Positions 3,636-32,096 of a stretch of 33,573 nucleotides of DNA are shown one piece after another. Below the pieces are notes generated by a model, which did no database searches, was not told where the DNA came from, and saw only the letters and a list, made by a program, of their open reading frames with translations. Numbering within the stretch: the stretch's first letter is position 1; each line of letters opens with the position of its first letter. Location of the stretch: IMG/VR virus record IMGVR_UViG_3300020281_000009, positions 1-33,573 of that record. One strand, given 5' to 3'. The DNA is from a virus. Made by a program: the position numbers and the translations under genes.

Positions 3636-4853
3636 ATGAATAATTTAAATATTGAGTATCAGGAAGTTGCTAAACTTACTCCTTATGCAAGGAATAGTCG
3701 TACACATTCTGATGAACAAGTATCTCAAATTGCAGCAAGTATTAAAGAATTTGGTTGGACTAATCCTATTTTAATTGATGAAAAAGATGGGATAATAGCA
3801 GGTCATGGTAGGCTCATGGCAGCGCAAAGGCTTAATGAAGCTAATGTGCCAACAATTAGGCTATCAGGCTTAACAGAGGCGCAGAAAAAGGCTTATGTTA
3901 TAGCTGATAATAAATTGGCTTTGAATGCAGGTTGGGATGAAGAAATGTTGGCTGTTGAAGTAGAAGAGCTTTTAGGTGAGGGTTATGATTTATCTTTAAC
4001 TGGTTTTTCAGAGAAAGAGATTAACAATATACTTTCAGCTAATGGAACAGATTACGAAGGACTTACCGATGAGGATGAAGTTCCTGAAGTAGATAAAACA
4101 ACTATTAAAGCAGGTGATATGTTTGCTTTAGGTCAGCATAGGATTATTTGTGGTGATAGTTTAAAAAAAGAAACTTTAGATCAATTATTACAAAAAGAAA
4201 CAATAGATTTATTATTAACTGATCCACCTTATGGTGTTAATTATTCCCAAAAAAACGAGTTCTTAAATAAATGGGATAAAGGCAATAGGGTTCAAAGAGA
4301 TATAAAAAACGATGAAATAGAAGATTTAGAAAGCTTTTGTACAGAGTTTTTAAATATAATTCCTTTTAGTCAGTATAATATTTGTTATGTATTTATGGGT
4401 GGACAAAAGCTACATCATTTAAGAACAGCTTTTGATGCAAGTAATTTAAACTTTAGTCAGTATTTAATTTGGAATAAAAATAATCATGTTTTAGGTAGAA
4501 ACGATTATTATCCTAAACATGAGTTTATATGCTATGGATGGAAAAATAAGCATAAATTTTATGGCAGCTCTAGCACTACAGTTCTAGACTTTGATAAACC
4601 TTTAAAAAGTGACTTACATCCTACAATGAAACCAGTAGCTTTACTGGAAAAACTAATTAATGATGGATCATTACCTAATCAAAATGTTTATGAACCTTTT
4701 TTGGGTAGTGGATCAACTTTAATAGCTTGTGAAAAAACTAATAGGAAATGTTTAGGAATAGAGTTAGAGCCACATTATATGCAAGTTATAATCAAAAGAT
4801 GGCAAGACTTTACTGGAAAAAAAGCAGAGAAAATAAATGGCAAGACCTTATAA
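3636..4853 (+). CDS. ParB-like nuclease domain / DNA adenine or N4-cytosine methyltransferase fusion
   Basis: A 405-residue two-domain protein. Residues about 5-110 form a ParB/sulfiredoxin-like domain (NPILIDEKDGIIAGHGRLMA). Residues about 155-400 form a DNA methyltransferase: GDMFALGQHRIICGDS, the catalytic D196-P-P-Y-G, and the AdoMet-binding EPFLGSGST at about 353-361. Motif order (DPPY before FxGxG) fits the beta class. It probably methylates phage or host DNA for protection or for marking packaging or replication sites. It sits directly before the small terminase gene, which it overlaps by 17 nt, linking methylation to packaging. No cognate restriction enzyme is seen. The start lacks a clear Shine-Dalgarno. 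Confidence 0.9.
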   Translation: MNNLNIEYQEVAKLTPYARNSRTHSDEQVSQIAASIKEFGWTNPILIDEKDGIIAGHGRLMAAQRLNEANVPTIRLSGLTEAQKKAYVIADNKLALNAGWDEEMLAVEVEELLGEGYDLSLTGFSEKEINNILSANGTDYEGLTDEDEVPEVDKTTIKAGDMFALGQHRIICGDSLKKETLDQLLQKETIDLLLTDPPYGVNYSQKNEFLNKWDKGNRVQRDIKNDEIEDLESFCTEFLNIIPFSQYNICYVFMGGQKLHHLRTAFDASNLNFSQYLIWNKNNHVLGRNDYYPKHEFICYGWKNKHKFYGSSSTTVLDFDKPLKSDLHPTMKPVALLEKLINDGSLPNQNVYEPFLGSGSTLIACEKTNRKCLGIELEPHYMQVIIKRWQDFTGKKAEKINGKTL

Positions 4854-5322
4854 GACAAACAATAAACAAACACCTGAATTAGAGCAAAAAATACTAACTG
4901 GGATTACAGAGGGTAAATCTTTGCATACGATTTGCAGAGATAAAGATATGCCTGATAGAACAACAATACATAATTGGATTAAAAGAGATCCTATCTTTGC
5001 AGCTAAGTATGATGAGGCTAGAGAGGAACGAGGTAATTATTATGGAGAGAAAGTATCAGAAATAGGCATGGCAGTCTTGGCAGGGAAGTTGGATTACAAT
5101 AATGCTCGTGTGGCAATAGATGCTCTTAAATGGACTGCAGCTAGAATGTCGCCAAAAAACTTTGGAGATAGGATGGAACTTAGTCATAAAGCTGAGGATA
5201 GCTTTGTTGACGCTTTAAAGGGGGTACAAGCTAAGGTTATAGAGCATGAGGAGATAGACAAGCTACCTCCACCACTACACGCACGTGGGGGAAAAAAAGA
5301 GCTAAAAAAGGCAATCCATTAG
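4837..5322 (+). CDS. terS: Terminase small subunit
   Basis: A 161-residue protein with an N-terminal helix-turn-helix (ICRDKDMPDRTTIHNWIKRD, about 34-53), a central helical oligomerisation region (to about 115) and a basic C-terminal tail ending KKELKKAIH. This is the common phage small-terminase layout: it recognises pac/cos DNA and hands it to the large subunit. It overlaps the methyltransferase 3' end, so expression is coupled. It is separated from terL by a 90-120 nt gap that carries att-like repeats. Confidence 0.87.
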   Translation: MARPYKTNNKQTPELEQKILTGITEGKSLHTICRDKDMPDRTTIHNWIKRDPIFAAKYDEAREERGNYYGEKVSEIGMAVLAGKLDYNNARVAIDALKWTAARMSPKNFGDRMELSHKAEDSFVDALKGVQAKVIEHEEIDKLPPPLHARGGKKELKKAIH

Positions 5323-5326
5323 TAAC

Positions 5327-5401
5327 GTCAGGATAAGAGCCTGACATATTTGTAACAATATCAATGGGATAGAGGAAAGTTAGCTATAAAACCATAGCTA
5401 A
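5327..5401. repeat. terS-terL gap with inverted repeats shared with attP
   Basis: Two inverted repeats are present: GTCAGG (5327-5332) with CCTGAC (5340-5345), and TTAGCTAT (5380-5387) with ATAGCTAA (5394-5401). Between them, ATATTTG (5346-5352) and TAACAATATCAAT (5353-5365) recur exactly at 29391-29397 and 29407-29419 in the attP region. ATAGCTAAAC (5394-5403) matches the arm-type repeat of attP. The gap thus looks like a shortened copy of the right side of attP. It could instead hold integrase or packaging sites. Confidence 0.6.
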
Positions 5402-5442
5402 ACATATATTATTTGGTCATACCCCCCCCCTCTGACAAAGCG

Positions 5443-6870
5443 ATGGGGGTAGGTCTAGAGATATATACCCCTTTTAATATTATGGAATTAGAAAAAACAT
5501 TACTAAAGCTAAGAAAAGACCCAGTCTTATTTGTAGAAACTGTTATAGGTGCTACCCCCCAAAAATGGCAAAAGGAAGCATTAAGGGCAGTTGCAAAAAA
5601 TGATCGGATAGCAATAAAGAGTGGGCATGGAGTAGGCAAAACTGCTTATTTAAGTTGGCTTACTTTGTGGTGGTTGTTAACCCACTATCCTTGTAAAGCA
5701 GCAGTTACAGCAAACACAGCGCATCAGTTAAGCGATGTATTGTGGACTGAAATTGATAAGTGGGCGAGGAAGTTGCCAAAGGGTTTTTATGATCAGCTTG
5801 AGATGAAAAGCGATAAGATTTCCCTTAAAGGGGTTCAGGATTCTTATGCTGTTGCTCGTACAAGTAGGCGAGAAAATCCTGAGGCTTTGCAGGGGTTTCA
5901 TAGTGAAAATATGTTGTTTATCTGTGAAGAGGCTTCAGGCATACCTGATGTTGTTTTTCAGGTAGGTGAGGGCAGCATGAGTACCAAAGGTGCTAAGACT
6001 GTCATGGCAGGTAATCCAACGAGAGCCGATGGGCATTTTTTTGATGCTTTTCATAGCATGAGGGACTCTTGGCATTGTATTACTGTATCGTGTAAGGAGT
6101 CTGACTCGGTAAATACTGGGTTCATTGATGAAATGTGTCGAAAATATGGCGAAGATAGTAATATTTTTCGTGTTAGGGTTTTAGGCGAGTTTCCTACTCA
6201 GTCGGATGATGTGTTGTTGCCCTTACATTTGGTTGAAAGTGCGACTAAAAGGTCGGTAGAGCCATCTCCTACGACTTCTGTTGTTTGGGGTATTGATCCT
6301 GCAAGAATGGGCGATGATCGGTCTTGTTTGGCAAAGAGAAAAGGTCAGGTGTTATTAGAGCCAGTTAAGTCTTGGTCTAAAAAAGATTTGATGGAGTTAG
6401 CAGGTATTATTGTTAATGAGTATGAGATCACAAGATGGGAAGATAGACCTGATCACATTTATGTTGATAGCATTGGTATTGGTGCAGGTCTTGCTGATCG
6501 TTTGGTGGAGCTTGATTTACCTGCTGTTGGGATTGCAGTTTCTGAAAGTCCCTCTATGAAAGAAAAATTTATGCGCTTGAGGGATGAGTTATATTGGAAT
6601 TGTAGGTCGTTTTTTGAGGGTAGGGATGTGCATATACCCAATGATGATGTATTGATTTCTGAGCTAACGAATATCAGGTATAAGTATTTGTCGACTGGTA
6701 AACTAAAGATTGAAAGCAAAGATGAGCTTAAAAGACGAGGTCAGAGAAGTCCTGATGTTGCTGATGCTTTTATTTTAACTTTTGCAGGTGATGGTGCGAT
6801 TGCTTCAGGTAGTGTTTCTAAATGGAGTACAAGGACAAGTTTGAAGCCTGATCTAAGATGGGTTGTATGA
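5443..6870 (+). CDS. terL: Terminase large subunit (ATPase/nuclease)
   Basis: About 475 residues. It powers DNA packaging into the prohead and cuts the concatemer. The Walker A motif SGHGVGKT lies about 60 residues from this start; a Walker B-like stretch is MLFICEEASG. The C-terminal RNase H-like nuclease shows WGIDPARMGDD, DSIGIGAG and RSPDVADAFIL, giving the acidic metal-binding set. The start is uncertain: a TTG at 5413 would include a run of nine C (5422-5430) encoding prolines, and ATGs at 5443 and 5482 are both possible; none has a good Shine-Dalgarno. Homologous terminases typically begin shortly before the DPxxFV segment, so 5443 or 5482 is favoured. Confidence 0.93.
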   Translation: MGVGLEIYTPFNIMELEKTLLKLRKDPVLFVETVIGATPQKWQKEALRAVAKNDRIAIKSGHGVGKTAYLSWLTLWWLLTHYPCKAAVTANTAHQLSDVLWTEIDKWARKLPKGFYDQLEMKSDKISLKGVQDSYAVARTSRRENPEALQGFHSENMLFICEEASGIPDVVFQVGEGSMSTKGAKTVMAGNPTRADGHFFDAFHSMRDSWHCITVSCKESDSVNTGFIDEMCRKYGEDSNIFRVRVLGEFPTQSDDVLLPLHLVESATKRSVEPSPTTSVVWGIDPARMGDDRSCLAKRKGQVLLEPVKSWSKKDLMELAGIIVNEYEITRWEDRPDHIYVDSIGIGAGLADRLVELDLPAVGIAVSESPSMKEKFMRLRDELYWNCRSFFEGRDVHIPNDDVLISELTNIRYKYLSTGKLKIESKDELKRRGQRSPDVADAFILTFAGDGAIASGSVSKWSTRTSLKPDLRWVV

Positions 6871-29202: not shown

Positions 29203-29282
29203 AATAAATCAAAAAGTTCGTCAGGCATGACATTTCGTCAGGATATTTGTTGTTTCGCTATAAATTTTTGCGAATCGTATTT

Positions 29283-29305
29283 TATAGCTAAACTTATAGC
29301 TAAAC
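29283..29305 (+). repeat. attP left-arm sites (two tandem TATAGCTAAAC)
   Basis: Two copies of an 11-mer one base apart. The same 11-mer occurs twice to the right of the core, so it is the best candidate for the integrase N-terminal (arm) binding site. Confidence 0.7.
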
Positions 29306-29336: not shown

Positions 29337-29388
29337 CGTCAGGCTCATAACCTGAAGGTCGTAGGTTCAAATCCTACCCCCGCAACCA
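29337..29388 (+). other. attP core: 3' part of initiator tRNA-Met
   Basis: Reads as the last 52 bases of an initiator tRNA: an anticodon stem-loop TCAGG-CTCATAA-CCTGA with anticodon CAT at 29346-29348, variable AGGTC, T-stem GTAGG/CCTAC, acceptor strand CCCCGCA, discriminator A and CCA at 29386-29388. A72 at 29384 and the lack of a Watson-Crick partner base for a typical C1 mark an initiator. There is no 5' half upstream, so this is not a complete tRNA gene. Integration would restore the host gene. The exact crossover point cannot be set from this sequence alone. Confidence 0.85.
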
Positions 29389-29432
29389 AAATATTTGAGA
29401 TTTCACTAACAATATCAATCACTTACACAAAG

Positions 29433-29488: not shown

Positions 29489-29510
29489 TATAGCTAAACC
29501 TATAGCTAAC
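29489..29510 (+). repeat. attP right-arm sites
   Basis: TATAGCTAAAC (29489-29499) and the one-base-shorter TATAGCTAAC (29501-29510), tandem as on the left. A further full copy lies at 29597-29607, in the leader of the gene at 29622. Confidence 0.68.
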
Positions 29511-29528
29511 ATTCGTCAGGATTATTTT

Positions 29529-29566: not shown

Positions 29567-29621
29567 AGATAATATATATAACTAATAGTTATATTTTATA
29601 GCTAAACAAAGGAGAGGCAAA

Positions 29622-29827: not shown

Positions 29828-30064
29828 ATGAAAATAACAAACCCAAAATTTCACCGACAAAATTTCACTCTTTACATTGATTTAGATGTTCAGAAGTTGC
29901 ATGAAGTAAAACTTAAAATGGGTGCTATTGATAAAGATACATCCATAGAAGATAGTTTGTTCCATGATCTTATGCAACTTGAAATTGATGTCAAAAGTTT
30001 TATTGAAGATTACTTTAATGATTATGATAAAGATATAATTATTAAGGACTCAGAAAATGAATAA
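29828..30064 (+). CDS. Unrecognised 78-residue acidic protein before the integrase
   Basis: Starts MKITNPKFHRQNFTLYIDLD; the second half is rich in D and E (SFIEDYFNDYDKDIIIKDSE). The ribosome-binding site and start context are the same as those of the upstream gene. Its end overlaps the integrase start by 8 nt. It is acidic, so it is unlikely to bind DNA directly; an anti-repressor or integrase partner is conceivable, with no direct evidence. Confidence 0.65.
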   Translation: MKITNPKFHRQNFTLYIDLDVQKLHEVKLKMGAIDKDTSIEDSLFHDLMQLEIDVKSFIEDYFNDYDKDIIIKDSENE

Positions 30065-31211
30065 CAGAGAACCGTCAAAACCAAAAAAAATAACAACAAT
30101 GAGAAGAGGTAAGCCATTTAAAACATGGCTTATCTATTACAAATTAGATGGCAAAGAATTTCGTTTTACATCAGTTGAAAAAGAAAAGGTTGAACAAAAA
30201 GTCAAACAAGTAAGAGACATGATTGCTCAAAATGGTGGAGCATCAAAAGCAACCTCTTTTGCTAGTTGCCATAAAATGTTTTTGATTTACAGATCAACCA
30301 TGATTGGAGTCATGGATGGTATTAGCAGAAGGCATTATCAGAATGATGAGAGACATTTAAGACTTCATATAGCAAAGTTTTTTGATGAGGATACAAACCT
30401 TGCAACCATAAATGCAGGGCGCATAAACTTCTTTAATGATCACATGAAAAAGCAAAATCTATCAGGTAAAACGAGAAGGGCAATTTTAAGCACCCTAAAT
30501 CTTTTATTTAAATATGCTATCTCAATGAACTGGATTGATCACAATCCTTGTAGCAGATCAGAAAGAGATATTATTAGAGGATCATCTCAGGAAAGAGTTG
30601 ATTTTACTTTAGAGGAGATCAATAAGCTAATACAATCAGCTAAGGAAGATAGTCCTTTATATTTTAGTTTGTTTTGGACTTCTGCATTGACTGGTATGGC
30701 AGCTAATGAATTAGCAGGTCTACAATGGAAAGATATAGATTTTTATAAAAGAACTTTGAAAGTCCTGAGAACTGCTCATAGAGGTGAGTTACTACCTACA
30801 AAGACTAAATTTAGAGAAAGAACTATTCCACTTTGCTCTAAGCTATCAGGAGTGCTGCAAGATTGGAAAATGGTCTGTAACTCAAATGTTTTTGTTTTCC
30901 CCTCTGCTAGAGGCTTACATGGCGATCAAGATGCTTGGAGAAAGCAAATAAAGCATTATTGCAAGGTAAGTGGAGTATCATATAAGGCAGATCCAAAAGA
31001 TAGGGATGGAAGAGGTCTTGGTGCTTTTAGAAAAGCATTTTCAACAACTATGGATGAAAGATTACAAGTACCACCAACCACTAATAAATATCGTATGGGA
31101 CACTCTAAAAGGTCAAATACTGCCAAGCATCATTATACTTTTGCTGATATGGATAGGGCGCAATCGCCTGATGACTATGAAAGAATGGCAGATATGATTG
31201 AGGAGAGTTAA
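30057..31211 (+). CDS. int: Tyrosine integrase with atypical active site
   Basis: 384 residues. An N-terminal arm-binding type region (about 1-60), a core-binding SAM-like domain (about 65-165) and a C-terminal catalytic domain (about 180-370). It should recombine attP with attB in the host initiator-tRNA gene. The first catalytic Arg of the TG-x-R-x-x-E motif is Ala in T212-G-M-A215-A-N-E. The HxxR box reads G322-A-F-R325, so the His is missing but the Arg stays. K249 or K251, H349 in MGHS and nucleophile Y360 in HHYTF are present. Other family members may share these changes. It is downstream of attP and converges with the PAPS-reductase-like gene, the two stop codons overlapping by 4 nt. 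Confidence 0.88.
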   Translation: MNNREPSKPKKITTMRRGKPFKTWLIYYKLDGKEFRFTSVEKEKVEQKVKQVRDMIAQNGGASKATSFASCHKMFLIYRSTMIGVMDGISRRHYQNDERHLRLHIAKFFDEDTNLATINAGRINFFNDHMKKQNLSGKTRRAILSTLNLLFKYAISMNWIDHNPCSRSERDIIRGSSQERVDFTLEEINKLIQSAKEDSPLYFSLFWTSALTGMAANELAGLQWKDIDFYKRTLKVLRTAHRGELLPTKTKFRERTIPLCSKLSGVLQDWKMVCNSNVFVFPSARGLHGDQDAWRKQIKHYCKVSGVSYKADPKDRDGRGLGAFRKAFSTTMDERLQVPPTTNKYRMGHSKRSNTAKHHYTFADMDRAQSPDDYERMADMIEES

Positions 31212-32026
31212 TCAGTACACTCTCCCCCATCAGCTTGACAAAAATATCCTTGTTGATCAAAAACCCAATCTTGTTGAACATCTACAAAGTTTTGAAATTT
31301 TTTTAGGTTTCTATCTCTGTTAAATTGCTTTTTAGTCATTTCTTCCATTTTAATCCACCATTCCATTTTATCAGGATGTTCTCTAGCCATCATAGCTAAT
31401 AAATGTTCTGATTTTAAAAAACAACAATCACAATTACCTTTGACACTTTTACCTTTTACAGTAGGTAAATTAAGATTAAAATTTTGTTTTTTCCAAAATA
31501 AATCTATTTGGTTAAGAGTTACCTTATTTTCAATCAAAGGATATTTTCCATAATACCAACCATTTATTAAATCTTTTTTTTCTCTATGCTTTTCATCAAA
31601 ACGAATACCTAAATAGTTAGACCATTTTTTCCAACCTAAAGATTTTAAATATTTAGCAGCAGTTTGTACTTTTAAAATTCCGGTACAAAACCTCTGCAAA
31701 GCATTAGGTAGTCTGCCATATTTTTTTATAATTTTTTCAAAAGGCTCACCATTTCTTGATGCAGAGTTGTGAGATACTTCTTTAAATAAGTTTTTGTCAT
31801 TGATTATATCATACTCTAACCAAACAACATTAATATTCCATCTTTCAGAACACTCCTGAACAAAATCAAGTGTCTGCTCCATTTCTTTACCAGTATTAGT
31901 AAATATTACTTTTGAATTATATAAAAATTTTGGATTGTTTTTTTTTAGTTGATAAAGCAAATATGCACTTGTCCTGCCACCACTAAAGGATATTTGATTT
32001 TGATGCCCATAAAGACTATAAGTCAT
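31208..32026 (-). CDS. PAPS-reductase-like PP-loop enzyme
   Basis: 272 residues from the ATG at 32026. The PP-loop S13-F-S-G-G-R-T-S20 near the N-terminus binds ATP/PAPS-type nucleotides; NTGKEMEQTLDFVQEC and PNALQRFCTGILKVQ are typical of the phage branch of the phosphoadenosine phosphosulfate reductase family; C-D-C-C (in GNCDCCFLK) may bind an Fe-S cluster or zinc. In phages this family is associated with DNA modification or sulfur chemistry of unknown role; sulfate assimilation is not implied. A GTG nine codons upstream (32053) lies within the zinc-ribbon gene; the ATG is preferred. Last gene of the leftward operon. Confidence 0.82.
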   Translation of the reverse strand: MTYSLYGHQNQISFSGGRTSAYLLYQLKKNNPKFLYNSKVIFTNTGKEMEQTLDFVQECSERWNINVVWLEYDIINDKNLFKEVSHNSASRNGEPFEKIIKKYGRLPNALQRFCTGILKVQTAAKYLKSLGWKKWSNYLGIRFDEKHREKKDLINGWYYGKYPLIENKVTLNQIDLFWKKQNFNLNLPTVKGKSVKGNCDCCFLKSEHLLAMMAREHPDKMEWWIKMEEMTKKQFNRDRNLKKFQNFVDVQQDWVFDQQGYFCQADGGECTD

Positions 32027-32096
32027 TTTTATGCCCACACATAGGGCAAACACCCTTTTTGTCTAAAGCTATTTTACATCTTGGGCAGAGTTTCAT
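32016..32096 (-). CDS. 26-residue zinc-ribbon microprotein
   Basis: A very short leftward gene: the ATG at 32096 has GAGGGG 5 nt upstream. The product has two CxxC knuckles, C4-P-R-C7 and C17-P-M-C20, followed by G-H, a treble-clef/rubredoxin-like zinc ribbon. It overlaps the end of the upstream gene by 23 nt and the start of the PAPS-reductase-like gene by 11 nt, so it is probably translated by coupling. It could act as a free zinc peptide or a partner of the neighbouring enzyme. Confidence 0.6.
   Translation of the reverse strand: MKLCPRCKIALDKKGVCPMCGHKNDL

Follow-up and report, generated by a model that had tools for sequence, protein, structure and literature searches.

The question raised by this locus is why the interval between the two terminase genes of a temperate phage repeats, in the same order, words found at the phage attachment site. 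The window, i.e. the whole stretch of DNA analyzed, is a 33.6-kb temperate phage record from a virus described as marine, and contains a ParB-methyltransferase, terS, terL, portal, scaffold, major capsid and endolysin genes, attP and a tyrosine integrase gene. The terminase small subunit gene terS (4837 to 5322, + strand; PHROG 1482, E 3e-32) ends with its stop codon at 5322 and the large subunit gene terL (5482 to 6870, + strand; PHROG 2, E 4e-51) starts with the ATG at 5482, leaving a gap at 5323-5481. The methyltransferase is a fusion with a ParB-like nuclease encoded just upstream of terS (3636-4853), and a PAPS reductase gene (31208-32053) is located 3′ of int. Relatives were gathered by terminase and integrase searches and comprised several hundred loci and 30 genomes. 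In every integrase-bearing relative, the integrase gene lies around 6 to 9 kb upstream of terS. A scan of bacterial genomes for integrated prophages yielded a single short MAG contig.

The initial annotation had reported four words shared by the gap and attP. All four were found in the gap in that order, namely CGTCAGG at 5326-5332, ATATTTG at 5346-5352, TAACAATATCAAT at 5353-5365 and ATAGCTAAAC at 5394-5403, and their attP counterparts are at 29337, around 29391, 29407-29419 and 29490-29499, respectively. The two inverted repeats (GTCAGG/CCTGAC, 7 bp apart, and TTAGCTAT/ATAGCTAA) were also recovered. A chance match had been considered unlikely, and shuffling bears this out: a 13-base common word was obtained in 0.12% of the dinucleotide shuffles of the gap, and none of 3000 shuffles reached the collinear chain of 37 bases (largest 31). 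However, only two of the words, CGTCAGG and ATAGCTAAAC, proved to be meaningful. The word TAACAATATCAAT, common to the window's own clade only, coincides in part with an IHF-like box (WATCAAN4TTR), and ATATTTG is without counterpart in the relatives.

We then delineated attP itself, all elements being on the + strand. The core is contained in a copy of the 3′ part of the host tRNA-fMet, from the anticodon stem-loop to CCA, identified from its sequence at 29337-29388. It is preceded by the P-arm pair, two copies of ATAGCTAAAC with a period of 12 (29284-29305), and followed by an IHF box matching the consensus at 9 of 9 positions (TATCAATCACTTA, 29413-29425) and by the P′-arm pair, again with a period of 12 (29490-29510). 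Immediately past the P′ arms, an additional CGTCAGG half-site (29514-29520) is present in nearly all relatives; further extra half-sites flank attP at 29219 and 29236. A single arm-type site (29598-29607) immediately precedes the first gene of the int operon, as it does in G006, G008, G009, G018 and G019. In nearly all relatives, the attP core upstream of int corresponds to the 3′ part of tRNA-fMet, the anticodon loop CTCATAA forming the overlap. Two relatives, G003 (around 23950) and L002 (1-400), have an intact integrase but no attP core; in L002, a segment of about 280 bp, which in the window lies between CGTCAGG words, has been lost from attP.

The gap contains a core-type integrase site (5326-5346, + strand), in which the half-sites CGTCAGG and CCTGACA are separated by the 7-bp overlap ATAAGAG. 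Half-sites and spacing agree with the attP/tRNA-fMet core, CGTCAGG-CTCATAA-CCTGAAG. Scanning the whole window for the core pattern gave just two matches, one at attP and one in the gap, and the integrase-bearing genomes scanned (complete or long) had the pattern at these two locations and no others. In G003, which lacks the attP core, the pattern was restricted to the gap, and a genome scan of the integrase-less C72C1 and G022 did not reveal it. The gap core of G005 (GGTTAGT...CCTGACT) is more diverged and was found by a looser search. When spacers of 3 to 11 bp were scanned over 131 distinct terS 3′ regions, 83 had a high-scoring core with a spacer of exactly 7 and no rival spacer emerged. 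Across relatives the half-site consensus, directly after terS, is CGTYAGG-like followed by CCTGACG. In these 83 gap sequences the half-sites reach up to 2.0 bits of information per column, and the overlap columns mostly 0.15 to 0.7. Thirty different overlap sequences were counted in the gaps, none of which (0/30) is the tRNA-fMet/attB overlap CTCATAA. The gap site therefore does not have the overlap identical to attB that characterizes a functional attP, a mismatch that should prevent its homology-dependent exchange with attP and attB alike. Such a site would either bind integrase without recombining, or recombine with its own copies only.

Several other readings of the core were discarded. 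An intrinsic terminator after terS had been flagged in the window scan, but 31 of the 83 sequences have a disrupted hairpin (CGTTACA...CCTGACG) and a conserved T-tract is absent. A tRNA-like identity was rejected since the inverted overlap resembles an anticodon loop in the window and not in other clades. The variability of the overlap was not retained as proof of recombination: L086 and L004, which differ in the overlap alone, would fit, yet other clades keep one overlap, such as TAACTGA, constant in many phages of the G009 clade.

Downstream of the core, the gap carries two arm-type sites, TTTTATAGCTAAC on the − strand (5379-5391), 33 bp from the gap core, and CATAGCTAAAC on the + strand (5393-5403), which matches the attP arm sites. 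The resemblance had been assigned to the right side of attP; the left (P) half, in inverted orientation, matches better. The distance between core and arm in the window is 33 bp in the gap and 33 bp for the P arm of attP, and the gap corresponds to the mirror image of the P half with its core and arm pair. The two arms are placed at 33/45 bp from the core on the P side of the window and at 33/47 bp in the gap; the corresponding values are 32/43 and 33/44 in G001, 30/41 and 31/42 in G005, L163, L167 and L169, and 43/55 and 44/56 in G026. In G008, G009 and G015 the gap spacing deviates from the P side by one arm step of 10-12 bp. Overall, gap and P-side spacings agree to 1-3 bp or are one such step apart, the arm pair lying around 31-56 bp beyond the gap core across relatives. 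The gap arms are direct repeats with a period of 11-12 in most clades, and inverted in the window's clade. In the G005 contig, positions 1-137 and the last 137 bp are near-identical copies of the gap that start just past the core; one has an extra 11-bp arm repeat, and the two may be strain variants or a terminal repeat.

Two further elements of the gap seem to belong with packaging. A C-run/G-run hairpin (TACCCCCCCCC...GGGGGTA; 5420-5451, + strand) is the sole such element in the window and a candidate cos/packaging element. It adjoins terS in almost all relatives, whether integrase-bearing or integrase-less, and is located upstream of terS, at 1755, in G021. Contig ends were set aside as evidence for cos because they scatter and C-runs break assemblies. 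The IHF-like box TATCAATGGGATA (5359-5371, + strand) matches 8 of 9 consensus positions and includes part of the shared 13-mer; taken alone, it is not significant (shuffle P 0.13). In some lineages such a box is found between core and arms, with 9 of 9 positions in G006, G019, G015 and G026, while it is at chance level in G001, L167 and L215. Since similar boxes are present in the gaps of integrase-less relatives, the IHF-like box probably belongs to the packaging module; for the same reason the 13-mer was rejected as an attP-specific word. The proposal of a packaging site sharing sequence with attP holds in part: the candidate hairpin directly adjoins the attP-like words, but the hairpin is a separate element, which integrase-less relatives have as well.

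The link between the gap and the integrase was evaluated by comparing lineages. The tyrosine integrase (30057-31211, + strand; PHROG 1, E 1e-41) has an N-terminal arm-binding domain, as indicated by alignment and by AlphaFold/Foldseek analysis: the predicted N-domain comprises three strands and a helix like known arm-binding domains (moderate confidence, mean pLDDT 72), and Foldseek retrieved the Tn1549 and lambda integrases. The catalytic tyrosine, the second Arg and the His are all present. The catalytic Arg I is missing, position 215 being A/S in 11 of 11 aligned integrases (motif TG[LMVI][AS]ANEL). Arg238, downstream of this residue, is invariant in the alignment and may stand in for Arg I, as in the CTnDOT integrase, which has lost the first catalytic arginine and uses a downstream substitute (PMC8138268).

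In each phage, the arm word of the gap is that of its own attP: TAGCTAAAC in the window, CAGAGAAAC in L154, TAGCGACA in G006 and G019, TAGCACCA in G001, TAGCGCCA in L215, GGCGATACA in G005, GGCAACACA in L167, GTGATAAAT in G008, TGGCTAAC in G009, TACCAACCA in G015 and TGCTTACAT in G026. Even the mix of TAGCCAAAC and TAGCTAAAC seen in L150 is present at both places. Over 12 lineages, matched gap/attP pairs shared 17-37 8-mer positions, whereas mismatched pairs shared 3.2 on average; the permutation p value of 1e-5 is indicative, as the lineages are related. Furthermore, arm similarity showed a partial correlation of 0.40 with the N-domain of the integrase, versus 0.09 with the rest of the protein. 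A natural swap illustrates this relation: the integrases of G009 and L213 share 58% identity in the N-domain, compared with 95% in the remainder of the protein, and have different arm words (GTGGCTAAC and GTGATTAAT). By this comparative evidence, arm words track the arm-binding domain of the integrase, natural domain swaps included. Relatives that had lost the words from the gap but kept them in attP would have spoken against the initial annotation; the opposite was observed, gap and attP changing together.

The distribution of the site points in the same direction. Among contigs that are complete or have at least 10 kb upstream of terS, around 13 bearing the site all encode the integrase, and the three without it (C72C1, G022 and G041) do not (Fisher estimate around 0.002). 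The fully extended integrase-less relatives have neither core nor arms in the gap and keep the adjacent hairpin.

Taken together, the gap displays what would be expected of a half-intasome: inverted core half-sites around a fixed overlap (83 distinct sequences), P-side spacing and, as the covariation implies, arm sites for the N-domain of the same integrase. Judged by its sequence, it is a complete integrase-type site, a bipartite core with an arm pair, and not an att relic. A second integrase-binding site had been among the possibilities raised initially, and the gap very probably is one, conserved at the packaging junction. The coordinated changes suggest that it has evolved in step with the integrase and that integration and packaging are linked. 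We lean slightly towards a dedicated second intasome site that couples the lysogeny machinery to packaging, be it by terminase gating or by recombination between sister gaps.

The presence of the site, its geometry, its covariation, its restriction to phages with this integrase and the overlap mismatch are read directly from the sequences, and from them we infer a function. The best explanation, to which we give an even chance, is a functional core and arm pair on which an integrase-bound complex gates packaging or late expression. A role in packaging is suggested by the location of the site, next to both terS and the candidate packaging element. The integrase, perhaps with IHF, would bind the core and arms of the gap and bridge them as in an attR half-intasome, and the bound complex would shield the beginning of the packaging region. 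At high integrase levels, during establishment of lysogeny or upon induction before excision is complete, terminase cutting would be blocked or late-gene expression lowered; once these levels drop, packaging would go ahead. Two observations count against this gate. The arms are inverted in the window's clade and direct in the others, and a simple roadblock does not need an exact 7-bp core, which leaves room for a recombination-competent gap core.

The main rival is accordingly a self-recombination site comparable to loxP or cer, at which the integrase would exchange the gap copies of sister genomes or co-infecting relatives, for dimer resolution or DNA circularization. The overlap could then drift freely because both partners carry the same one, and this would account for the complete core, its invariant 7-bp spacing and the free overlap. 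In addition, two or more gaps are mosaic, with a change of ancestry no more than a few tens of bp from the core: in G001 versus G002, and in L341 versus the G009 clade, gap and terL are nearly identical and the terS types unrelated. These switches, however, also fall at the end of the terS gene, a place of frequent ordinary recombination. Neither dimers nor rearranged contigs turned up, a phage with cohesive cos ends could circularize without recombinase, and the constant overlap of many G009-clade phages does not fit a freely drifting one. We regard this alternative as rather unlikely.

Slightly less credible is that gap-bound integrase controls transcription into terL and the late operon. 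It fits that terL is the first gene past the gap and that the single arm site at the start of the int operon would suit autoregulation, since integrase autorepression is known for KplE1 IntS (PMC2951348). Nevertheless, a consensus scan gave a single weak promoter-like match before terL, fewer than in shuffled sequences, and in L060, L070 and L072 other genes, some on the reverse strand, are inserted between the site and terL.

The direct repeats might instead be TerS binding sites of the cosB type, shared with attP by chance or recruitment. They adjoin terS and the candidate packaging hairpin, and lambda cosB likewise combines repeats with an IHF site. This is very improbable given that the words track the N-domain of the integrase, are missing from relatives with TerS and no integrase, and differ despite closely similar TerS: near-identical gaps of the G009 clade carry either GTTAGCCAC (L309) or ATTAATCAC (L308), whose terS are 99% and 100% identical to that of G009, respectively. 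Finally, the relic of an att site or module junction proposed initially, or a chance resemblance, would explain the overlap unlike tRNA-fMet, hence a gap that is not an active attP, but is hardly tenable because drift would have destroyed the exact spacing, the kept half-sites and the match to a changing integrase in around 12 lineages, and because the initial 95 bp of the gap show no difference between phages with TerS proteins of just 79% identity.

Temperate phages must not package before the prophage has left the chromosome, and packaging before excision moves host DNA (lateral transduction). To our knowledge, few phages are understood as to how excision and packaging are ordered. An integrase site conserved beside the terminase genes would link integration and packaging directly and, if terminase gating proves true, would stop prophages from being cut before excision. 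Such coupling, by gating or by recombination of sister gaps, would amount to a new type of developmental checkpoint in temperate phages. The natural swaps of arm words would also provide a ready-made code between arm-binding domains and DNA. In the open-access literature searched, no description of a dedicated integrase site beside terminase genes was found, so that its novelty is provisional.

Known systems share parts of this arrangement. Phage P1 has loxP, the site of the tyrosine recombinase Cre, next to pac; as in the gap, a recombinase site lies by the packaging region with an overlap free to differ. Cre is, however, separate from a chromosomal integrase, whereas here a tRNA integrase would have two kinds of site. 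P2 Cox and similar dual-function proteins use one set of boxes for recombination and for a second phage activity; in the gap, the covariation implicates the integrase itself rather than a directionality factor. Lambda cosB combines an IHF site with repeats close to where terminase cuts. An IHF-like box and repeats also lie by the candidate packaging element of the gap, but there the repeats correspond to arm words of the integrase, and the likely cut-site element is located between terS and terL. The KplE1 integrase IntS, bound at recombination sites, also acts as a regulator and represses its own gene (PMC2951348). Its site is a real attL overlapping the int promoter, while the gap would be a separate, dedicated site at the terminase genes. 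The closest likeness is to attP/attR of the lambda Int type, with inverted half-sites around a 7-bp overlap, helically phased arm repeats, in some lineages an IHF-like box, and the same integrase. The gap differs in being distant from attP, between terS and terL, in its overlap unmatched to attB, and in its single, mirrored arm pair, inverted instead of direct in the window's clade.
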